A DNA stretch of 31,695 nt from a virus, in the IMG/VR virus record IMGVR_UViG_3300032053_000323, positions 1 to 31,695 of that record; one strand, written 5' to 3'. Positions 2,660 through 28,381 of this stretch are shown here, in pieces (the first letter of the stretch is position 1; each line of letters begins with the position of its first letter). A program made the position numbers and the translations under genes. Under the pieces are notes generated by a model. It was given only the letters and a program-made list of their open reading frames with translations, did no database searches and was not told the origin of the DNA.

Positions 2660-3226
2660 ATGTCGATCCTAATAAAGCTATTTGCACTGTCATTGTCGTT
2701 CATGAGCATGCTCGGAATTTCAATACCATTGCTAACACCCATAAATGCACATGTGAAACATGAAGTTGTTGAGACACCTCTCACTGAGATTCAGTTGATG
2801 AGAGTTTTGAAAGATTCACACATAATCGTGTTTGGGAATGAACCATCGGATCATCGCCTCACGATGGCATGGGCTCAGGTTGCATTTGAAAATGGCCGCG
2901 GAGCATTGACGGTCAATCACAACATCGGAAATACATGGATGGGACCTGATGCTCCATACTATGTCGTTGGTGGGAATCAAAAGTATCGTTCATTCGCTAC
3001 CTTCGAAGAGGGTGCAAAGGCATATTGGATCACTATCAAGAGTTGTGGGCCGGCAACAAGGGCGTTCGAATGGGGTTCTGCGAAGGTGGCAGCTGAAGCG
3101 CTCAAGGCGTGCAATTATTATGATGCTGACATTGATGCATATGCCGCGGCCATGGGTTCACTGTATTACAATGCAAAAAAGTTGCTTCCTGAACTGAATG
3201 GAGGAAAAGATGGCGGAAGTTATTGA
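2660..3226 (+). CDS. secreted glucosaminidase/lysozyme-like enzyme
   Basis: The 188-residue protein has a signal peptide or N-terminal anchor (hydrophobic residues 3-25). AWAQVAFENGRG (70-81) then resembles the catalytic helix of lysozyme-fold glucosaminidases, with Glu77 as probable acid. HNIGN (87-91) and YRSFAT (109-114) match the NxxN.xGI and YxSF boxes of GH73 (FlgJ-like) enzymes. It probably cleaves peptidoglycan in the periplasm or outside the cell and could be an export-type (SAR-like) endolysin. No holin is recognised next to it. The ribosome binding site is weak. The end overlaps the start of the NADAR gene by 17 nt. Confidence 0.7.
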   Translation: MSILIKLFALSLSFMSMLGISIPLLTPINAHVKHEVVETPLTEIQLMRVLKDSHIIVFGNEPSDHRLTMAWAQVAFENGRGALTVNHNIGNTWMGPDAPYYVVGGNQKYRSFATFEEGAKAYWITIKSCGPATRAFEWGSAKVAAEALKACNYYDADIDAYAAAMGSLYYNAKKLLPELNGGKDGGSY

Positions 3227-3677
3227 CAGATTTGTGGGTGAGTTTTCATTCCTTTCAAACTTTCATCCCTCTACAATTGTCGTGAGCGGGAAATTCTACC
3301 CTAGCGTTGAACATGCATACCAAGCGATGAAGACGTTCGATGCTACAACACACGAGACGATCAGAAAAGCAAAGACACCCGGCGAAGCAAAAAAATTGGG
3401 CCGATGTGTCACATTGAGACCAGATTGGGAACATGTAAAAATTGATCTGATGCGTTCACTCGTCAAGAAAAAGTTCGAAAATCCACTTCTTCGTGAGATG
3501 TTGCTTGCGACAGAAGACGTTCCACTCGTCGAAGGGAACAATTGGAACGATTGTTTTTATGGCGTTTGTCGTGGAAAAGGCACTAATTGGCTCGGCAAGA
3601 TCCTTATTGAAGTTCGCAATGAAATTAGGGCCGAAGTCGCCGCCGAGAGTGTAATTGACGACAAATTTGTGATATGA
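3210..3677 (+). CDS. NADAR (YbiA/DUF1768) family protein
   Basis: The 155-residue protein matches the NADAR family along its length: FLSNF (14-18), YPSVEHAYQAMK (30-41), PGEAKKLGR (57-65), W73, M81, KKFENP (87-92), LLAT (98-101), LVEGNNWND (106-114), then GTNWLGKILIEVR near the end. Family members act on ADP-ribose-like or riboflavin-pathway N-glycosides; some remove ADP-ribose from guanine and so counter DarT1-type toxins. A counter-defence role in a phage is reasonable but inferred. I place the start at ATG 3210, 5 nt after GGAGG, rather than the in-frame ATG at 3198. Confidence 0.88.
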   Translation: MAEVIDRFVGEFSFLSNFHPSTIVVSGKFYPSVEHAYQAMKTFDATTHETIRKAKTPGEAKKLGRCVTLRPDWEHVKIDLMRSLVKKKFENPLLREMLLATEDVPLVEGNNWNDCFYGVCRGKGTNWLGKILIEVRNEIRAEVAAESVIDDKFVI

Positions 3678-3684
3678 TGGTATC

Positions 3685-3888
3685 ATGAAGACGATCGCTA
3701 TCGCTATTTTCTTGGCAATCTCTTTCTCGGGGAATTCGCAGACGATTGCTTCGCCTCTCGATTGTGAAAGCATTCACGATCCCGATGCGCGGAACTATTG
3801 TCGGGCGATCTCGAAACACGATAAGAGTTACTGTTCTTTCATCAAGTCACATGATCTCCGAGCTCGATGTCGAGCTGAGGTAAAGTGA
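3685..3888 (+). CDS. small secreted cysteine-repeat protein
   Basis: The 67-residue protein begins with a clear signal peptide (MKTIAIAIFLAISFSG). The mature part holds two copies of one unit, C-x2-I-x3-D-x-R-x2-CRA: CESIHDPDARNYCRA and CSFIKSHDLRARCRA. The four cysteines could form two disulfides in the periplasm or outside the cell. I do not recognise a family with known function. It starts 7 nt after the NADAR gene and precedes tRNA-Leu(CAG). Confidence 0.7.
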   Translation: MKTIAIAIFLAISFSGNSQTIASPLDCESIHDPDARNYCRAISKHDKSYCSFIKSHDLRARCRAEVK

Positions 3889-3902
3889 ATAGTTATCGAT
3901 AT

Positions 3903-3987
3903 GCACATGTGGCGGAACTGGTATACGCATACGCCTCAGAAGCGTACGCCGTGAGGATTGAGGGTTCGACTCCCTTCGTGTGCACCA
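3903..3987 (+). tRNA. tRNA-Leu(CAG)
   Basis: The acceptor is GCACATG (3903-3909) / CGTGTGC (3977-3983). The anticodon stem TACGC/GCGTA encloses CTCAGAA, anticodon CAG for CUG. A class II variable arm is present. Discriminator A3984, CCA encoded at 3985-3987. The last A is also the first base of the next RNA element's stem. Confidence 0.93.
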
Positions 3988-4052
3988 TGCTACAAGTAAC
4001 TCTGACCCGTACGTCAGAAATTCAGCAAATAACGCGTAAGTGAAAATAGCAT
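3987..4052 (+). ncRNA. inter-tRNA structured RNA element D (short form)
   Basis: ATGCTA (3987-3992) pairs perfectly with TAGCAT (4047-4052). Inside are CAAGTAAC (3993-4000) and AAGTGAAAA (4038-4046), with the AC/GU step and AGTA/GAA pairing of the other copies. An interior hairpin CTGAC/GTCAG lies at 4002-4016. The element runs from the CCA end of tRNA-Leu(CAG) to 2 nt before tRNA-Arg(CCU). This is one of the two best-paired copies. Confidence 0.78.
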
Positions 4053-4054
4053 AT

Positions 4055-4136
4055 CTCCTCGTAGTCTAGCGGACAAGGCACCACTTTCCTAAAGTGACGA
4101 CGAAAGTCATCGCAGGTTCGATTCCTGCCGAGGAGA
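4055..4136 (+). tRNA. tRNA-Arg(CCU) with an extra variable arm
   Basis: The acceptor is CTCCTCG (4055-4061) / CGAGGAG (4129-4135), discriminator A4136. The anticodon stem CACT/AGTG (with a C-A mismatch at its base) holds TTCCTAA, anticodon CCT for AGG. The T-arm is GCAGG-TTCGATT-CCTGC. The variable region is 15 nt and contains GAC-GAAA-GTC, a small hairpin; class I arginine tRNAs normally have 4-5 nt here. Acceptor and T-arm are nearly the same as in tRNA-Arg(UCG), so it looks like a paralogue with an inserted arm. Confidence 0.82.
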
Positions 4137-4145
4137 CTAAAGAAA

Positions 4146-4511
4146 ATGTGTTCTCATGACCATAAGCGATTTATGTTCACAATTGACACAGATGAAGAAG
4201 ATCAATTTACAGTCGACTTATACGACGCTGAAGAACACATCGGTTATGTGAACGTCGTCAGAGCACGAGTTCGTGTCTGTAAAGGCAGCACTTACATTTG
4301 GGAAACGCACTCTCGTCTCAATGAAAAATATCACAAGACGGGATTAGGAATTTGCATGTATGCTGAGGCAATCAGACATGCAAAAAAGAGTGGTTATACG
4401 ATCACGTCATCGCGGGCGCCGAGCGCGCAAGCCCAGCGCCTCTGGACGTCAAAGACGCTAAATTCGATGTTTTCAATCATACGTTTTCACTTTCGCTGGT
4501 GGGTAAAATGA
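4146..4511 (+). CDS. GNAT-like acetyltransferase domain protein
   Basis: The 121-residue protein has a segment typical of small phage GNAT-fold proteins. WETHSRLNEKYHKTGLGICMYAEAIRHAKKSGY contains a YxxxGLGxxMY acetyl-CoA-loop-like stretch (about residues 62-73) followed by a helix, then a region rich in S and A before LW. The first half is beta-rich. The acceptor is unknown. The ATG lies 10 nt after the GGAG of the tRNA-Arg(CCU) acceptor, which may act as its ribosome binding site. The stop overlaps the next start (ATGA). Confidence 0.6.
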   Translation: MCSHDHKRFMFTIDTDEEDQFTVDLYDAEEHIGYVNVVRARVRVCKGSTYIWETHSRLNEKYHKTGLGICMYAEAIRHAKKSGYTITSSRAPSAQAQRLWTSKTLNSMFSIIRFHFRWWVK

Positions 4512-4891
4512 AAATTCTAGTGACTGGCGATAGAAATTGGGATGACTATAACATCGTCGCTGAAGCACTTAGTGCGTTGCCACCCGGAACGATCATCGTG
4601 CACGGTGCTTGTCGTGGTGCTGATGTCATTTGCGCAGAAACAGCAAAAGAACTTGGATTCATCGTTCGATCATATCCTGCTGATTGGAAGCGTTTCGGTC
4701 GGGCGGCGGGCCCGGTCAGAAATAAGCAGATGCTCACTGAAGAAAACTTGTCTCATGAACCTATCAATTTCGTCTATGCGTTTCACAATGATCTCAAAAA
4801 TTCTCGTGGGACAAAGAATATGCTCAAGCAAGCAGAATCTTGCGGCGTTCGCTATCGACTTTTCTCATCTCCTCGTAGCATAACTGAATAA
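4508..4891 (+). CDS. SLOG/DUF2493 (YspA-like) nucleotide-binding protein
   Basis: The 127-residue protein begins MKILVTGDRNWDD and has HGACRGAD (32-39) and PADW-x-RFGRAAGPVRN (57-71), the three hallmark boxes of the DUF2493/YspA branch of the SLOG Rossmann-like superfamily. These proteins are thought to bind nucleotides or nucleotide-derived ligands; the activity is not settled. ATG 4508 overlaps the previous stop; an in-frame GTG at 4499 would only add three residues. Its last 23 nt lie inside the tRNA-Arg(CCG) gene. Confidence 0.85.
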   Translation: MKILVTGDRNWDDYNIVAEALSALPPGTIIVHGACRGADVICAETAKELGFIVRSYPADWKRFGRAAGPVRNKQMLTEENLSHEPINFVYAFHNDLKNSRGTKNMLKQAESCGVRYRLFSSPRSITE

Positions 4892-4945
4892 CGCATCCGC
4901 CTCCGACGCGGACGATTGTGAGTTTGAATCTCACCGAGGAGACCA
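4869..4945 (+). tRNA. tRNA-Arg(CCG), overlapping the upstream CDS
   Basis: The acceptor is CTCCTCG (4869-4875) / CGAGGAG (4935-4941). The anticodon stem TCCGC/GCGGA encloses CTCCGAC, anticodon CCG for CGG. Discriminator A4942 and encoded CCA (4943-4945). The D-arm is irregular and lacks the usual GG. The first 23 nt are also the last codons of the SLOG gene, so tRNA excision from a joint transcript would truncate that mRNA. Confidence 0.88.
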
Positions 4946-4959
4946 ACTGTGTAATCTTG

Positions 4960-4975
4960 ATACCTGACAAGGTAT
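4960..4975 (+). other. hairpin between tRNA-Arg(CCG) and the lipoprotein gene
   Basis: ATACCT, loop GACA, AGGTAT form a perfect 6-bp hairpin 15 nt after the tRNA. It is followed by AGTAAAATT, not a T-run, so termination is doubtful. It may stabilise the 5' end of the downstream mRNA. Confidence 0.45.
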
Positions 4976-4997
4976 AGTAAAATTCAGAGGCGAAATA

Positions 4998-6062
4998 ATG
5001 GTCAAGCGTATTGGTGTTCTAACGAGTCTTATCGTGTTGAGTTCAACGTTGATTGCATGTGGATCTGATCACGGAATCGATCCCGGTTGGGAAAATGACG
5101 TGGGAGCCGATGTCGCTCGTGACTCTGGTCGTGATAGTGGGCGAGATTCCAGAATGACAAGCGTTGACTCTGGTCCTGCGTGCATTCAAAACGACGACAA
5201 GTGGCAACAAGGCGCAGGGTGCGGTGAAATCGCGGCGCCGATCCTATACCACAGTGGTGAGGTGATGAAAAATGGTGCAAACGTTTATTTTGTCTGGTAT
5301 GGTGACTGGAAGGATAGCTCCATCCCAACAATTCTCGAAGATCTCGCAAAAAACATTGGAAACACCCCTTACTACAATATCAACAAAGGATATTTCGAAA
5401 ATTCCTCTATTGAAGTAACCGGGAATGCTGGCGGATTTCCTGTCTATGTCTCTGGGCGCGTCACATTGATCAGAAGTATCACTGTGGGATACACTCATGG
5501 AAAAAATCTATCAGATGAAGATGTGAAGGCAATTGTTGATGACTCAATTAACAGTGGCGAACTTCCGTTTGATTGGGACGGAACATACTTCGTAATGGGT
5601 TCGAAGAAAGTTCAGCAGCATAGTGGTGGTTACACATTTTGTGGCAGTTATTGTGGCTGGCACGATCATGGAAAATTGATGTATCGTGGAGATCCTGAAC
5701 GTGTGATTGATCTCAAATACTCATTTGTTGGAAATCCCGACCAGTGTCTTCGTGATTGCACCATTTATAGTAATGAACGTGCACATGGAATTGAAGTGAG
5801 TCCAAATGGTGATTGGGCGGCTGATAGCATGGCGTCAGTCTGGGCTCATGAATTGAGTGAAATGGTGACTGATCCGTATCTTACGGCATGGTGGGATTCA
5901 TATGGTTGGCAGAATGCTGACAAGTGTGCATGGACATTCGGACAAACGTATTGCGCCGCGAACGGCGCCATGGCGAATGTCAAGATCGGCGATCGAGACT
6001 ATCTCCTTCAACGCAATTGGGTAAATGACCCTGTGTGCGGTCGATGTGACATGAAACCGTGA
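4998..6062 (+). CDS. EXORDIUM/phosphate-induced-1-like lipoprotein
   Basis: The 354-residue protein has a lipoprotein signal with lipobox LIAC (Cys21), then an Asp/Ser/Gly/Arg-rich linker (about 34-60). The rest resembles the plant EXORDIUM (phosphate-induced protein 1) family. GDW...P near 103-110 is followed by a YY.I...Y segment, FCGSYCGWHDHG (214-225), YSFVGNPDQC (241-250) and SPNGDWAADSMASVWAHELSEMVTDP..TAWW. ADKCAW follows. HELSE (284-288) recalls a metal site, but no enzyme activity is established for the family. The linker resembles those of Myxococcota lipoproteins, suggesting acquisition from a host. It probably sits on the membrane or cell surface and may alter the envelope or exclude other phages; that role is inferred. 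Confidence 0.8.
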   Translation: MVKRIGVLTSLIVLSSTLIACGSDHGIDPGWENDVGADVARDSGRDSGRDSRMTSVDSGPACIQNDDKWQQGAGCGEIAAPILYHSGEVMKNGANVYFVWYGDWKDSSIPTILEDLAKNIGNTPYYNINKGYFENSSIEVTGNAGGFPVYVSGRVTLIRSITVGYTHGKNLSDEDVKAIVDDSINSGELPFDWDGTYFVMGSKKVQQHSGGYTFCGSYCGWHDHGKLMYRGDPERVIDLKYSFVGNPDQCLRDCTIYSNERAHGIEVSPNGDWAADSMASVWAHELSEMVTDPYLTAWWDSYGWQNADKCAWTFGQTYCAANGAMANVKIGDRDYLLQRNWVNDPVCGRCDMKP

Positions 6063-6247
6063 TGAAATCGTTTTTTCTAATCATATGTTTGATATCATCA
6101 GGTTGTTTCCTGAGGTGGGATGTCCCAAAGACACCTCGTCGAGATCCTTGCACAGGTGCAGTGTCTGAGACCTACGTATACATGGCAACCTGTGAAACGC
6201 CTCAAGTCATTCAAATTCGTCCTCATCATTGGCATGATCATTATTGA
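6062..6247 (+). CDS. small putative lipoprotein
   Basis: The 61-residue protein starts at ATG 6062, overlapping the stop of the EXORDIUM-like gene (TGATG). The N-terminus MKSFFLIICLISSGC is a short lipoprotein signal with lipobox SSGC. The mature part has two more cysteines and a His-rich tail (HHWHDHY), which might bind metal. No family is recognised. Coupling to the larger lipoprotein suggests they are made and exported together. Confidence 0.65.
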   Translation: MKSFFLIICLISSGCFLRWDVPKTPRRDPCTGAVSETYVYMATCETPQVIQIRPHHWHDHY

Positions 6248-6786: not shown

Positions 6787-6859
6787 CAGAGATGAGTGAG
6801 CTGGTGAACACGCTTGTATGACATGCAAGTATCGAAGGGTTCGATCCCCTTATCTCTGA
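6787..6859 (+). tRNA. tRNA-Val(GAC)
   Basis: The acceptor is CAGAGAT (6787-6793) / ATCTCTG (6852-6858). The anticodon stem CTTGT/GCAAG encloses ATGACAT, anticodon GAC. The T-arm is AAGGG-TTCGATC-CCCTT. Position 8 is G rather than T and the D-stem has only three pairs. Discriminator A6859; CCA is not encoded. Confidence 0.87.
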
Positions 6860-6889
6860 CAAGAATGAAAATAGAAGTGAGGTCAAGCA

Positions 6890-7294
6890 ATGTCATCAGA
6901 ACCAATGCCATCAGAACCAAAGATGGTCATCGTCGTCCGCCGCGACTTAAACATGAGGAAGGGAAAAGTTGCTGCGCAAGTAGCGCATGCATCGATGAAG
7001 TTTCTCATTGATAACAATGAGTCAGAACGCGGAGACGAAGTCATCGTCAAGCTGTCAAATGCTGAAGCGATGTGGCTCTCGGGATCATTCACAAAGATCG
7101 TCGTGTCTGTCGATTCAGAAGACAAACTAAAAGACCTCATGCTACAGGCACAATTGAGCGACATTGAGGTGCACCCGATTGTCGATGCCGGAAGAACGGA
7201 ATTCAACGGAGTGCCAACATTGACATGTGCAGCGTTCGGCCCGTGCGATGCAGACCTCCTAGATGAAATTACAGGTGACTTGAAACTGATGTGA
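6890..7294 (+). CDS. Pth2-type peptidyl-tRNA hydrolase
   Basis: The 134-residue protein matches the archaeal/eukaryotic Pth2 family: KMVIVVRRDLNMRKGKVAAQVAHAS (11-35) is the hallmark N-terminal strand and helix, and residues 85-120 hold the C-terminal HPIVDAGRTEF and TCAAFGP boxes. Pth2 cleaves the ester bond of peptidyl-tRNA released from stalled ribosomes and recycles the tRNA. It is unrelated in fold to bacterial Pth1. The first 11 residues, with a repeated SEPMPSEP stretch, precede the domain, so Met12 could be an alternative start. It lies between valine tRNAs. With the release factor and RNA ligases it points to upkeep of the tRNA pool. Confidence 0.92.
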   Translation: MSSEPMPSEPKMVIVVRRDLNMRKGKVAAQVAHASMKFLIDNNESERGDEVIVKLSNAEAMWLSGSFTKIVVSVDSEDKLKDLMLQAQLSDIEVHPIVDAGRTEFNGVPTLTCAAFGPCDADLLDEITGDLKLM

Positions 7295-11997: not shown

Positions 11998-13263
11998 ATG
12001 GAACTCATTGTCAAGGACTATCTGAAGTCACACACTCTTCGTGAACTCGAAGAAGAGCATGGTGTCAATTCACGACCGAATTTGGCGATGGATAAGGTAT
12101 CATTAAATTATGATATGATCACAGTCAAAAATGATGATGCCCTTGCGGCACAGTGTCGTGGCCTTGTGATCAGGATTGATCCCGCGTTGACGAAGAAAAT
12201 GCTCCACGACGTTGAAAAACAAATTGACGTTCCCAAGGCACGCTGGCGAGACAGAGTGATCGGCGACATTGAAGTGCTCGCTTGGCCAATGAATCGCTTC
12301 TTCAATCACGGTGACTCATTCGGTGCTGTCATTGATTGGTCAGATCCCGGGCTTCGTGTTTACGAGAAGCTCGATGGAACGATGATCGTTGCATATTGGG
12401 ACCCACTGTACATGCGATGGTTTACGGCGACGCGATCGGTCCCTGAAGCCGACTTGCCGATCAACAAAGACAGCATGGAATTGGGTTCGACGACCTTTTC
12501 TGACTTGTTTTTTCAGGCACTTCGCGCTACTCGTGAGGCGAACTCAGGTGTTTCGATCGACTGGGCTGTCGCTGGCATTGACAAAATTGTTCATCTGAAC
12601 AAGGAACTGACGTATGTTTTTGAATTGACGACGCCTTACAACCGCGTTGTCGTCAAGTACGATGAACCAAGGGTGACTCTCTTGGCTGCACGTCACACGC
12701 TTTCAGGCAAAGAAATTGCAATCGAAACGCTTCGCCTCGAACACGTTCAACGCCCGAAGACTTGGCCTTTGCGCAGTGCTTCTGCAATCGATGCATTTGT
12801 CAATGCGGCTGATCCTGCACAGCTTGAAGGTGCTGTGGTCGTTGATTCTCACTTCAATCGCCTCAAAGTGAAAAACAAGGCATGGGTCCTATCATCGAAG
12901 GCAAAGGACATGGTCACAACCTCTCGCAGGTCTGCACTCGAATCGATCATCCTTGGAACGATCGATGACGTGTATCCTCTCATCGCAAAAGATATCGCAG
13001 AGATGCTTCAGAAGATGGCGTCTGACTTTAGCGAATACATCGTGAAAGTTGACAAAAACTTCATCGAATGGAGGAACCTCGCAAACGGTTCACGCAAAGA
13101 GTTCGCCATGAAAGTCATGGACTCGGGCGACTGGACGGCGCCGTATTTCAACTTGTGGGAGAATCGTGCTGAATCAGCTTCACAGTGGATTCAAAACATG
13201 GCAAAGGCCAACAAATTGTCCACGACGTCACTCGACACTATCCTCAAAAAGATTGGGCAGTAG
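11998..13263 (+). CDS. RNA ligase, T4 Rnl1-like
   Basis: The 421-residue protein has YEKLDGTM (122-129) as motif I with Lys124, YVFELTTPYNRVV (206-218) as motif III/IIIa, LEGAVVV (276-282) as motif IV and KVKNKAW (290-296) as motif V. A C-terminal helical domain follows, as in the T4 Rnl1 family (374 residues in T4). CRGLVIR near residue 53 is also typical. T4 Rnl1 reseals tRNA cut in the anticodon loop by host nucleases. ATG 11998 is preferred over 11941, which would overlap the divergent HAD gene. The window therefore encodes two distinct RNA ligases. Confidence 0.88.
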   Translation: MELIVKDYLKSHTLRELEEEHGVNSRPNLAMDKVSLNYDMITVKNDDALAAQCRGLVIRIDPALTKKMLHDVEKQIDVPKARWRDRVIGDIEVLAWPMNRFFNHGDSFGAVIDWSDPGLRVYEKLDGTMIVAYWDPLYMRWFTATRSVPEADLPINKDSMELGSTTFSDLFFQALRATREANSGVSIDWAVAGIDKIVHLNKELTYVFELTTPYNRVVVKYDEPRVTLLAARHTLSGKEIAIETLRLEHVQRPKTWPLRSASAIDAFVNAADPAQLEGAVVVDSHFNRLKVKNKAWVLSSKAKDMVTTSRRSALESIILGTIDDVYPLIAKDIAEMLQKMASDFSEYIVKVDKNFIEWRNLANGSRKEFAMKVMDSGDWTAPYFNLWENRAESASQWIQNMAKANKLSTTSLDTILKKIGQ

Positions 13264-13384
13264 CACTAACGTTCATGGCACGGGTTATTCTGTGGGCCTC
13301 ACAGGGTCCTGTGTCCATGTCTCCATGCCTTTGTTATAGTGAGATCACAACTTAGGACCGATAGTTACAAATGGAGGCGGCATC

Positions 13385-13552
13385 ATGATGATCGTAGTCG
13401 ATATCCTTGGGGACGATGAAGATGTGAAGATCGTGGATGAAGTGGCCGACGAAGAGAAAGAAGCTCAGGCAGCGAAGATCGCTGCTTGGAAGCGAGAGAT
13501 CTTGGAACGTGACAACCAAACGCAAGTTGTGCCCGTCGTCACACCAGGTTAG
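13385..13552 (+). CDS. hypothetical 55-residue acidic protein
   Basis: ATG 13385 follows GGAGG by 7 nt, one of the best ribosome binding sites in the window. The frame runs to TAG 13550-13552. The product is acidic and helical ([21 protein letters not shown]), ending in a Val/Pro tail. It overlaps the 3' end of the convergent fibre gene by 4 nt. The 120 bases upstream are noncoding, contain a CTGTG/CACAG hairpin and TATAGT at 13335-13340, and could hold its promoter. No family is recognised. Confidence 0.65.
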
Positions 13553-24504: not shown

Positions 24505-26015
24505 TGGAGATCACTTATCCTGAACACAGGCGATGCTGCAAGGTATCGTTGTGTGTTATTTCCCGTCACTAGTAGCACATCTATGACGTATGATCGTTCG
24601 TGCGTCAAATTTGACATATCGAGCTTGAAGAACATTCCAGAGACGTCAGATGACACTTTTGTCGAATTTCCAACGATGTCGAATGGAATGACCATTTCGT
24701 TCGTTGACGTATCACGAACTCCATAATACACGTCTCTGATCGTAAGACCGGGAAGTTGAAATGGAGTTCTCTTGAATATGATTGTTGGTGACGATTGGTC
24801 GAATATGTTTACTCTCAACACTGTTTCTTCGTCTGAACGGTGGATGTCATGAAGACCGAGCACTGAAACAACAAATGTTTTTGGATCGATTGACGTTGAG
24901 GTTCGTGAGGGCCATGTGACAGTGAGAGCACTTCCAGTGAGGAACGTGACACTTCCGTCAAGTGAACCCCAGATCGGCGTAAATTTGACCGAGCCAGATT
25001 GTGCAAGTTTTGTAGCAACAGTCGAATCTGTTGAGGAAACGATGACAGATGCTGAATAAATTCCTGCGATGGGGATTGTCCATGCCTTATGCTGCGATCC
25101 TGTGAATACGAGATTATACCAACCGCCCGAAATCTCAGTTGCGAGCTTTAGAATTAGTGAATTTGAACCTGTGATTTGTGTCAATGATGAACCAGATGTG
25201 ATATTTGCTGGTGCATTTCTCACATAATTGTACAAAAACAGGTAACCCGTGTTGTCAAACACAATGCTTTGTGCGTCATCAGTCACAGAATCATCAAATT
25301 TGACGACTAGACGTGGATGTTTGTCTTCATTGAATGCAGTTCGAGAACCAAACCTTTTCACGAAATATGTGTGAGTGTCTTCTTCGATCGTTGTATCAAA
25401 TGAAATTCTGAACCCGCTGTCAGGAATCACTCCAGCTAAAGTAGATGAGATCATTGGCGTTACGTCTACGTCAAGGTCCTCTTCACCCGTGGTAAAGAAT
25501 TGCGATGCTTTAAGACTCGAGGTAAATGCTGAACCTGTGATGTAGTCACACGCATTGACAGCTAGACCACCAAGAGCACACCCAGACAACAACCAAGCTC
25601 CACCTGCTCGCGAGCTCGAAAGAAAGTTACACACGTCATGGTCTGAATAATAGACGACATCTTTTCCCAAACCTTCATCGAATGAACGTGAAAGAGGATA
25701 GACCATTGCAGTGAAACCTACTGGTGTTGGTTGCCCACCGTACACATCTCGCAGTTGTAGTTTACACTTGAATGTGGGACTTGTGATATCGATCTTTCCT
25801 TGATTGACTAAAGACCTTAGTGGCGCAAGATCAAAGTGAACAAAGAGTCTTGATAACTCTGTAAGTGCAGTGCTTCCACTTATGGTGATACCGTACAACT
25901 TGAACATGTCAAGTGATCCCGCCGCACCGAGGCTTGATGTTAGGCTCCTGCGACCGTTAATGAAACGATCTGTTATGTACGTGTCCTTATCAGCACGAAG
26001 AATTTTGAACATCAA
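24501..26015 (-). CDS. virion protein with DNRLRE-like beta domain
   Basis: The 504-residue protein begins MFKILRADKDTYITDRFING, with a following LFVHFDL, the pattern of DNRLRE-type beta-sandwich domains. A second part includes FVKRFGSRTAFNEDKHPRLVVKFDD (around 215-240), frequent in tail proteins next to gp6. Later beta repeats include SGSVKFTPIWGSLDGSVTFL. Its position directly after gp6 is that of T4 baseplate wedge gp7, but no sequence likeness to gp7 is seen. It overlaps both neighbours by 4 nt. Confidence 0.7.
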   Translation of the reverse strand: MMFKILRADKDTYITDRFINGRRSLTSSLGAAGSLDMFKLYGITISGSTALTELSRLFVHFDLAPLRSLVNQGKIDITSPTFKCKLQLRDVYGGQPTPVGFTAMVYPLSRSFDEGLGKDVVYYSDHDVCNFLSSSRAGGAWLLSGCALGGLAVNACDYITGSAFTSSLKASQFFTTGEEDLDVDVTPMISSTLAGVIPDSGFRISFDTTIEEDTHTYFVKRFGSRTAFNEDKHPRLVVKFDDSVTDDAQSIVFDNTGYLFLYNYVRNAPANITSGSSLTQITGSNSLILKLATEISGGWYNLVFTGSQHKAWTIPIAGIYSASVIVSSTDSTVATKLAQSGSVKFTPIWGSLDGSVTFLTGSALTVTWPSRTSTSIDPKTFVVSVLGLHDIHRSDEETVLRVNIFDQSSPTIIFKRTPFQLPGLTIRDVYYGVRDTSTNEMVIPFDIVGNSTKVSSDVSGMFFKLDMSNLTHERSYVIDVLLVTGNNTQRYLAASPVFRISDLQ

Positions 26016-27856
26016 ACAACGGCCTTTCCCACGATGTCGACCTCAGGAAATCGCACTTCGAAGATCCCACCTGGAGGTGGGAAGATGATCCCCTGTTTTG
26101 TATTGCTTCCAACATCGAACGTCAATGAACTATAGTCCCTGTTTGCAACTTTTCCTGAGATGCTATTGAATAGAACTCGATCGACTGAGATGATGCCCTG
26201 AACTGTAAATATTGTGTTTACGACGTCTGATGTCACGATCGGTTGATCGATATGAAAGTTCTTAATATCAAATTGTGTTTGCAATTTTGTCAAGACGTTC
26301 TGAAGTACGATGCTTCGGTTCAATGATGGATCAACGACGACCTCAAATGTCAATGTCAGGTTTATGATATTTGCATCGAGAATGTCGATCGCATCAGATA
26401 TCATTCTGTATGGATTGAGGAACACAGATAGGTTCTGTTTCAACGTATCAGGTGACGTTATCAATTTCTGTTCAGGAGTACGGGACACTATGAATAGTTG
26501 TGTCGCCAATGGATTGTTTGGATTCGATCTGATCGCTGCCCTAAAGACACGGCCAAAATTCGATGGAATGCTATAGATTCTCGCGAGCAAGTCTTCTCTT
26601 GTGACAATGCGTTCTTGTGAATTTCTGATCGATGGAATCAGCGCTATCAATTCATCAGATGTCGGAGCATCTTCTCCACCAGATGCTTGTTTCTTATTTG
26701 AAACCTCAATTGTTCCCTTCACGTTAGCAGCGATTGCAGGTGATGGATTCCCAGGAAAGAAGACCTTCAACATGCTTGTCGTTTTGATGTTTGTTGGTGG
26801 AACATTGTGATTTAGTCCCCCTCCATATCGATACGTTACGCTCAACGTTGTGCCAGTTGCAGCTACACCGAGTGTCTTTGTTTGTAGAAGTTGTTCTGGG
26901 TTGACAGATATTCTCGAAAATGTTCTTGCATATGGGAAAGAAATTGCAAAATCAGAAGGATCAGGGATCACATCATCATCAAGAGTGTTTGCACTTCCAC
27001 CACCAAACGTGAGTATCGTTTTTCTTGAAGCAAGATCTCCAACGGCTGTGAATCTGTACGGTGCTGGGATTACCTTTATCGCATCTCGAACAAGAGTGTT
27101 GTCCTTTGCTGTATTTAGAACGTTCTTGTATACAACGTCATGTGTCAATGAATTGACGCGATAATAGATGTTTCCAAATGCATCAGTGATATTGACGATG
27201 TCTGTGACATTTGCGTTTGAGAGCGTGATCTTTCTAAACGGTGTGAATGTACTATCGATTGAGATGTTTTCAGTCACTTCAGTTCCTGAGACGCATAGTC
27301 CGTCAGACGCCATGATGAATGAGGCGGGCGCGCCCGAGGCGGACTTCGTACCGACCCTAATCTCAGCAACATATGTTCCATCTGAACGCTTCTTGTTGAA
27401 ATCAACGTCTTCCATGAGGATGAAACTAGTTCCATTGTCGGCAGCAAAGATGCATCCTGCTTGCACAATTGGGATCGCATCTGTTGACGGTCCTATTACG
27501 TTATTGACCATTGCGGCGGGAACCTGAACAAAGATCGTTTCATTCACAACAGCGGGGGAAGCACCAACAATCTCAATTCCAGACGTCCGAAGAGCGCGCT
27601 CGATGTTGACGGTTTCAACTGCTGTCTCTGGGCTTAGTTCGGCATATTGATGATCGAGATAGAACGACATGTTGTCGCCGACATATGCAGCAAAATCTAA
27701 AAAGAGTCCTCCCAAGGACGCATCAGAAAAATCCTTGATCCGATCGGGATAATAGAGGCGTGCGTATTCGAGCAGTGACGCCCGCAGTGAATCAAAGTCG
27801 CGACCGAGGTATTTCCTCTCGCGCACATTCTTTAGATCATCACGTTTGAGACTCAT
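26012..27856 (-). CDS. gp6: baseplate wedge protein, T4 gp6-like (Baseplate_J)
   Basis: The 614-residue protein starts RKYLGRDFDSLRASLLEYARLYYPDRIKDFSDASLGGLFLDFAAYVGDNMSFYLDHQYAE, shown here only as the recognisable gp6 pattern F-x-S-L+...L...P..+.DF...D.G..+++L.AY+.D...+Y+D. This N-terminal region and the later SIRNSQERIVTREDLLARIYSIP are typical of large-myovirus gp6. T4 gp6 forms the wedge ring that triggers sheath contraction. Length is close to T4 gp6 (660). It lies 51 nt after gp25, the order also seen in T4-like baseplate clusters. Confidence 0.9.
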   Translation of the reverse strand: MSLKRDDLKNVRERKYLGRDFDSLRASLLEYARLYYPDRIKDFSDASLGGLFLDFAAYVGDNMSFYLDHQYAELSPETAVETVNIERALRTSGIEIVGASPAVVNETIFVQVPAAMVNNVIGPSTDAIPIVQAGCIFAADNGTSFILMEDVDFNKKRSDGTYVAEIRVGTKSASGAPASFIMASDGLCVSGTEVTENISIDSTFTPFRKITLSNANVTDIVNITDAFGNIYYRVNSLTHDVVYKNVLNTAKDNTLVRDAIKVIPAPYRFTAVGDLASRKTILTFGGGSANTLDDDVIPDPSDFAISFPYARTFSRISVNPEQLLQTKTLGVAATGTTLSVTYRYGGGLNHNVPPTNIKTTSMLKVFFPGNPSPAIAANVKGTIEVSNKKQASGGEDAPTSDELIALIPSIRNSQERIVTREDLLARIYSIPSNFGRVFRAAIRSNPNNPLATQLFIVSRTPEQKLITSPDTLKQNLSVFLNPYRMISDAIDILDANIINLTLTFEVVVDPSLNRSIVLQNVLTKLQTQFDIKNFHIDQPIVTSDVVNTIFTVQGIISVDRVLFNSISGKVANRDYSSLTFDVGSNTKQGIIFPPPGGIFEVRFPEVDIVGKAVV

Positions 27857-27907: not shown

Positions 27908-28381
27908 TCACATAGCATATAGCACTAACTCTAAGGCGCGCGATTTCACGTTTAGCGCTATTACACTATACGTCACCGTGACCCGAATGATAGCGGTGTT
28001 CTTGTTGTCTGTGTGATCAGTGACTGAAATGAAATCTTCGAGGCTGACATAGGGCATCCATCGACTGACTGCTGAACTGATTCGTTCGATCGTTTTTGAA
28101 TCAAAATCATCAAGCGACACAAGATCTGACATCAATGGGCGTAAGTTTGCGCCAAAATCATATGATCCGAGGCGCTCACCCCAATTTGTCATCAAGAGGT
28201 TTCTTAAGTTGTCATGCACTTGATCTGTTAGACTAGAGTGCATGGCAAGAATTTCTGCCTGCTCACCATATCCCAAGCGTAACGGTGTTTTGATTCCAAT
28301 CGGAACAACAGCAGACGTCAATTGTTCGACTAGTTTTTGCTCTTGCGTCTTGCCGGCGCTCTTGAAACTATATAATCCCAT
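27908..28381 (-). CDS. gp25: baseplate wedge protein, gp25-like (GPW/gp25)
   Basis: The 157-residue protein has the GPW/gp25 core: ILAMHSSLTDQVHDNLRNLLMTNWGERLGSYDFG (EPR-like box: NWGERLG with G..G) and L..D followed by a C-terminal beta strand pair (NTAIIRVTVTYSVIA). gp25 joins wedge and sheath and starts sheath assembly. T4 gp25 is 132 residues; the extra length here is at the N-terminus. It follows the Pro/Leu-rich gene by 17 nt. Confidence 0.9.
   Translation of the reverse strand: MGLYSFKSAGKTQEQKLVEQLTSAVVPIGIKTPLRLGYGEQAEILAMHSSLTDQVHDNLRNLLMTNWGERLGSYDFGANLRPLMSDLVSLDDFDSKTIERISSAVSRWMPYVSLEDFISVTDHTDNKNTAIIRVTVTYSVIALNVKSRALELVLYAM

Follow-up and report, generated by a model that had tools for sequence, protein, structure and literature searches.

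What might a phage gain from a protein of the EXORDIUM family? EXORDIUM proteins promote plant cell expansion, and an earlier note on the DNA analysed here had read one of its genes as encoding an EXORDIUM-like lipoprotein. This stretch, hereafter the window, is a 31,695-bp IMG/VR virus record, a fragment of a tRNA-rich, contractile-tailed phage. Its tail-fibre and baseplate wedge genes (the latter phrog_261 at 27908–28378 and phrog_219 at 26012–27853) lie between 13.5 and 31 kb on the opposite strand; together with the nature of the record they uphold the view that the gene is phage-encoded. DNA similarity to the window was found in none of 50,697 deposited phage records, and its protein gave only a chance-level match to the same records (E=0.6).

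Is the family assignment sound? In an HMMER search the Pfam profile Phi_1 (PF04674) matched residues 84–318 of the window's protein with 79.2 bits (E=4.3e-22), well above the curated gathering cut-off of 25 bits. The family has no match in any of 14 control genomes, so this one is not due to chance. It covers profile positions 3–232, that is 230 of the 276; C-terminal of it, the protein can be aligned with bacterial homologues as far as C350. The protein also bears an export signal, and Arabidopsis EXO, a member of the EXORDIUM/PHI-1 family, is exported (PMC2661892). We conclude that the protein belongs to the EXORDIUM family, as had been claimed.

The lipoprotein gene and its neighbours

The features of the window are as follows.

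2660–3226, + strand: exported protein, weak match to glucosaminidase (Pfam, only E=0.05; 47% identical homologue in contig L135, same order)
4869–4945, + strand: tRNA-Arg (CCG), upstream flank of the Phi_1 gene (ARAGORN, Rfam)
4986–4990, + strand: Shine-Dalgarno-like AGAGG, 7 nt 5' of the ATG (sequence)
4998–6062, + strand: EXORDIUM/Phi_1-family (PF04674) lipoprotein gene, 354 aa, ORF intact
4998–5060, + strand: type II signal peptide, residues 1–21, lipobox LIA-C, C21 the predicted lipidated Cys (sequence, lipobox scan)
5061–5237, + strand: disordered linker, residues 22–80, first part Asp/Ser/Gly/Arg-rich (AF2 pLDDT, composition)
5238–6050, + strand: Phi_1 domain, residues 81–351, predicted metzincin-like fold (Pfam; alignment with 83 bacterial homologues; Foldseek of a bacterial homologue's model)
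5640–5663, + strand: C215xxxC219GWH222, two half-cystines and an invariant His, a possible metal ligand (alignment of 86 sequences)
5769–5801, + strand: insertion between C254 and P269-N-G, common to the lipoprotein phage homologues (alignment)
5847–5876, + strand: HELSEMVTDP, with H284, E285, E288 and D292 on or just past helix 273–291 (alignment; helix from DSSP)
6062–6247, + strand: second small lipoprotein, 61 aa (lipobox ISSGC; orthologue in L135)
6787–6860, + strand: tRNA-Val (GAC), downstream flank of the Phi_1 gene (ARAGORN)
6890–7294, + strand: PTH2 peptidyl-tRNA hydrolase (PF01981 E=2.1e-30; 71% identical in L135)

The signal sequence (MVKR...LSSTLIA-C21) has a KR n-region, a hydrophobic h-region and the lipobox L18-I19-A20-C21, as expected of substrates of Lgt and LspA. 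Export and lipidation are well supported by these signals, from which we infer an envelope function. The linker that follows contains 8 Asp in 39 residues and is mostly disordered by prediction, with an AF2 pLDDT below 50 at residues 23–44 and 46–76. The HELSE motif occupies residues 284–288 (nt 5847–5861). Lipoprotein character, Asp/Ser/Gly/Arg-rich linker and HELSE motif had all been noticed beforehand, and all three hold.

The gene does lie between tRNA genes: ARAGORN places 15 of them in the region around it, tRNA-Arg(CCG) and tRNA-Val(GAC) being its flanks. The former overlaps the 3' end of an upstream SLOG-family ORF (4499–4891). The coupling to a second small lipoprotein is also confirmed. 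The stop codon of the Phi_1 gene (TGA, 6060–6062) and the ATG at 6062, the better start for the small lipoprotein, overlap as TGATG, and an orthologue occupies the same place in L135 (7020–7202), with 47% identity over 49 aa (E=3e-16). Because it is conserved there, we regard the small lipoprotein as a real gene. Elsewhere in the window, 2111–2626 encodes a 171-aa protein with a release-factor GGQ domain and only the end of a PCRF domain; its N-terminal half is not evident upstream.

Relatives in phages and bacteria

Does the gene recur in other phages? First scans of viral DNA, with the single protein and with a three-row alignment, gave no locus. A broader profile and DNA patterns brought to light at least six further virus contigs with a Phi_1 gene (L085, L086/L087, L094 and L135–L137). 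The most informative comparison is with L135, a 27-kb contig having 30 tRNA genes in 12.6 kb, with which the window has a common gene order: exported glucosaminidase-like protein, NADAR, Phi_1 lipoprotein, small lipoprotein, 115-aa gene, PTH2, HNH and RNA ligase. The possibility that the window is a chimeric contig was rejected on the ground of this shared order. The two Phi_1 proteins are 44% identical and the glucosaminidase-like proteins 47%, like the small lipoproteins over their 49 aa, whereas NADAR, PTH2, HNH and RNA ligase are 62–71% identical. Of these neighbouring proteins, most intracellular ones have diverged more slowly than the exported ones; the 115-aa gene product (45%) is an exception. 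A kept gene order with so low an identity of Phi_1 is as expected of a host-facing protein.

The Phi_1 copy of L085 (9.6 kb) is intact. In the related L086 (130 kb) and L087 (25 kb) the gene ends just before HELSE, identically in both contigs:

L086:7638–9262 and L087:9818–11442: cut-off Phi_1 gene, then an HNH gene on the other strand and tRNA-Ala genes

The missing remainder was not found anywhere in the 130-kb contig. The presumed active part can, it appears, be lost. L094 sits on a contig of 472,749 bp, beyond the jumbo-phage threshold (>200 kb), the window being a 31.7-kb fragment. Dozens of proteins are common to the 472,749-bp and 130-kb contigs, and the Phi_1 neighbours that they share are CYTH-like, GIY-YIG-like and HNH-type ORFs (named by eye).

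These contigs hold other genes of note. L085 encodes an exported alkaline-phosphatase-superfamily protein (1504–2493; PF01676, E=1.1e-8). Near its cut-off Phi_1 gene, L086 encodes a predicted lipoprotein of 606 aa that has c-type haem motifs and matches a RoxA-like cytochrome (3500–5320; PF21419, E=1.7e-16); the contig also holds a complete bacterial-type RNase P RNA (13079–13408; RF00010, 257 bits, E=1.1e-82). A tRNA-His guanylyltransferase is encoded on the 472-kb contig (L105:3744–4505; phrog_4717, E=2e-39).

Two forms of the protein occur. A lipobox was found by scan in the window, L086 and L094, and by sequence in L135; L085, with its unusual LTWC-AYG, escaped the scan. The Asp-rich linker recurs in L085, L086 and L094. 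Between C254 and PN, all five lipoprotein-type phage copies have 14 or 18 residues, against 6–9 in 81 bacterial copies. PF04674 matches L135–L137 well. L136, which also has UvsX, single-strand binding protein and terminase genes, and L137 encode a non-lipoprotein version; because it has an ordinary signal peptide and, in L136, no insertion, it points to a separate uptake. More distant still are proteins with HELAEMLTDP in L140 (3630–4493) and L142 (2970–3833), which have no signal peptide and no Pfam match, and HExxE..DP proteins in L138 (no PF04674 match) and L141 (559 aa, PF04674 E=2e-13).

How is the family distributed in bacteria? The earlier description, mainly plants and some bacteria, understated the latter. 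One degenerate-pattern scan of genome contigs yielded 267 bacterial stretches, of which the best 80 were retained; these were picked by similarity to the phage protein and are not an unbiased census. They belong to Pseudomonadota, Acidobacteriota, Myxococcota, Verrucomicrobiota, Actinomycetota and Armatimonadota, many being soil MAGs, and bacterial Phi_1 proteins reach 52% identity with the phage protein over aligned columns. A 2009 paper had reported only one bacterial EXORDIUM homologue (PMC2661892).

The signal peptide of most bacterial copies is of the ordinary kind. Among the best 80 of 267, a simple lipobox scan was positive for 8 of 10 from Myxococcota and for 4 of 70 from the other named phyla (Acidobacteriota 1/29, Pseudomonadota 2/33, Verrucomicrobiota 1/4, Actinomycetota 0/3, Armatimonadota 0/1), and several of these four calls look false. 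Two Gemmatirosa plasmid copies were also positive. This lipobox frequency hints at Myxococcota as a possible host or donor. Of 117 sampled Myxococcota genomes, 5 match a phage-based profile. The hope of finding the donor by phylogeny was disappointed. The window, L085 and L086 group together (100/93) and L094 falls elsewhere on a very long branch; a single clade of all four is neither rejected nor shown (p-AU 0.49). The phage rows are long branches, and the tree resolved no donor phylum.

The neighbours differ too. An exported DUF4440/SnoaL-like gene lies near Phi_1, mostly directly downstream, in 28 of the 33 Pseudomonadota loci among the best 80 of 267, and beside it in four Acidobacteriota loci (bacterial loci L011–L084). 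Neither the 10 Myxococcota loci nor the phage DNA that was searched showed this gene. Its product is a possible functional partner of Phi_1.

Conserved residues and predicted fold

Which parts of the domain are held constant? We aligned 86 bacterial and phage sequences (5 phage and 81 bacterial in the comparison of the insertion). H222, D276, H284, E285, D292, W298, D308, C310 and W312 are invariant in all 86. E288, and with it HExxE, is present in 85, and the motif is kept in all full-length phage copies; phage and bacterial proteins have the same invariant residues and cysteines. At position 305 the window alone has Gln and the other 85 have Glu. C215 and C250 occur together in 76 sequences and are missing together from 10, never one alone, while C219/C254 and C310/C350 are invariant. 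Disulphides in a protein that is exported would give such a pattern, and three (C215/C250, C219/C254 and C310/C350) are likely.

Where does the motif lie in the predicted fold? AF2 modelled the window's protein with pLDDT 78.8 and pTM 0.80, most of the domain exceeding 90, and a Mizugakiibacter homologue (L008) with pLDDT 92.2 and pTM 0.89. The best Foldseek match of the latter model in the PDB is a venom metalloprotease (3k7n, E=4.9e-4, probability 1.00). All 50 matches listed are venom metalloproteases, ADAM, ADAMTS, TACE, fragilysin or InhA-type metalloproteases, or the inactive relative ADAM22; the window's own model ranks the same kind of proteins, more weakly. TM-scores are 0.3–0.5 (about 0.4), and among the matches listed only one has E<0.001. 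Since the TM-scores are so modest, the predicted likeness to metzincins is a fold-level resemblance, not close kinship. By sequence, the window's protein matched nothing in the PDB, none of 83 family members gave a Pfam metallopeptidase match, and a BFVD fold search returned nothing meaningful.

HELSE lies on the long helix 273–291 (DSSP) of the predicted fold. Zincins carry HExxH on the corresponding long helix, and adamalysin/ADAM-type metzincins, the best structural neighbours, likewise have a long helix bearing HE. That HELSE might prove to sit in a metal site stood up in part: the helix and the nearest solved structures favour it, while the motif is HExxE rather than HExxH. Phi_1 proteins have HExxExxTDP instead of HExxHxxGxxH. 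Because the second zinc His is Glu in HELSEMVTDP and TDP replaces the Gly turn, we do not class the domain as a metzincin; on the model, it may work like one.

A hydrolase or a binding protein?

What, then, might the lipoprotein do? We know of no biochemical activity recorded for any EXORDIUM/Phi_1 member. Our tentative preference, which we hold with some reserve, is for a hydrolase, probably metal-dependent, that is made during infection and anchored in the envelope. Exported and lipidated on Cys21, the protein would be held in the host envelope by its flexible, Asp-rich tether, and its folded part would be a disulphide-stabilised EXORDIUM-family domain of metzincin-like fold. H284, E288 and a third ligand would bind a metal, with E285 as the general base of a peptidase-like enzyme whose target may be an envelope or extracellular protein. 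The surface of the infected cell would be altered, for instance by removal of a receptor, so that superinfecting phages are blocked. The small lipoprotein encoded just downstream is a probable partner.

Metal-dependent hydrolysis is proposed because H284, E285 and D292 are invariant, E288 is nearly so, and the predicted fold is metzincin-like. The same place in related viruses and a protease-like predicted shape suggest that the virus acts on the infected cell's surface. The benefit, whether receptor removal with superinfection exclusion or some other surface change, is a guess by analogy with phage lipoproteins already known. Against a hydrolase count HExxE in place of HExxHxxGxxH, the modest TM-scores, the Q305 of the window and the loss of HELSE in L086/L087.

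The main rival, quite possible in our judgement, is a binding protein or pseudoenzyme on a metzincin-like scaffold, masking a receptor or binding a surface ligand without cleavage; HExxE would then be structural or would hold a structural metal, such as calcium. The family-wide HExxE (85 of the 86 aligned) and the presence of ADAM22 among the listed structural matches fit such a protein, as does the precedent of phage lipoproteins such as T5 Llp, which act by receptor blocking. Like Llp, the window's protein is phage-encoded and, by prediction, envelope-anchored; it differs from Llp in being much larger, with a conserved putative catalytic domain. What tells against mere binding is the constancy of H284, E285 and D292, and nearly that of E288, in sequences that otherwise vary widely; a scaffold would not normally need so much constraint.

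Could the gene be a passenger from a bacterial host, serving the phage only briefly or not at all? Soil bacteria commonly have homologues and the gene is cut off in L086/L087, yet L135 keeps the same gene order and the same small lipoprotein partner, several divergent phages have copies sharing the insertion, and all full-length copies retain the motif; we think it unlikely. We give a little less credence to a lysis or spanin accessory pair, in which the large and small lipoproteins would act, when infection ends, on the outer membrane, close to the exported glucosaminidase-like protein. The tight coupling to an Rz1-sized lipoprotein and that nearby protein's weak glucosaminidase match, all conserved in L135, would suit it; but spanins are not known to have a 270-aa Phi_1 domain, the bacterial homologues are ordinary exported proteins, and the tRNA region is no known lysis cassette. 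A distant relationship to microbial transglutaminase, highly improbable, was rejected: profile A2 matches 1iu4/3iu0 over 45 positions (E=0.04–0.05) and PF09017 matches 8 of 83 homologues (best E=7e-4), but the catalytic Cys-Asp-His triad is not kept, Phe314 standing where MTG has its catalytic His, the family's conserved cysteines behave as disulphide pairs, and no transglutaminase is among the 50 structural matches listed.

How does the phage protein, read as a hydrolase, relate to the plant family? It is a lipoprotein where plant EXORDIUM is apoplastic, and it keeps HExxE..TDP; to our knowledge plant EXO proteins have no such residues at that place, and plants may hold a metal-free form. PF04674 is a family already known. 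We found no report of EXORDIUM in phages or as a metallopeptidase in literature covered in part (few subscription journals). A bolder proposal, which we consider doubtful, is that the EXORDIUM/Phi_1 family is metzincin-like, a kinship so far unrecognised, and has its metal site at HExxE; phages would have taken it up more than once, its membrane-tethered form serving as a surface protease in infection and plant EXORDIUM being its metal-free descendant. If true, this would give a long-unexplained plant growth protein a structural ancestry. With its envelope tether, invariant HE and D and metzincin-like predicted fold, the phage protein offers a testable activity for the whole family, and the Phi_1 lipoprotein is a candidate means by which large phages change the cell surface of the soil bacteria that they infect.
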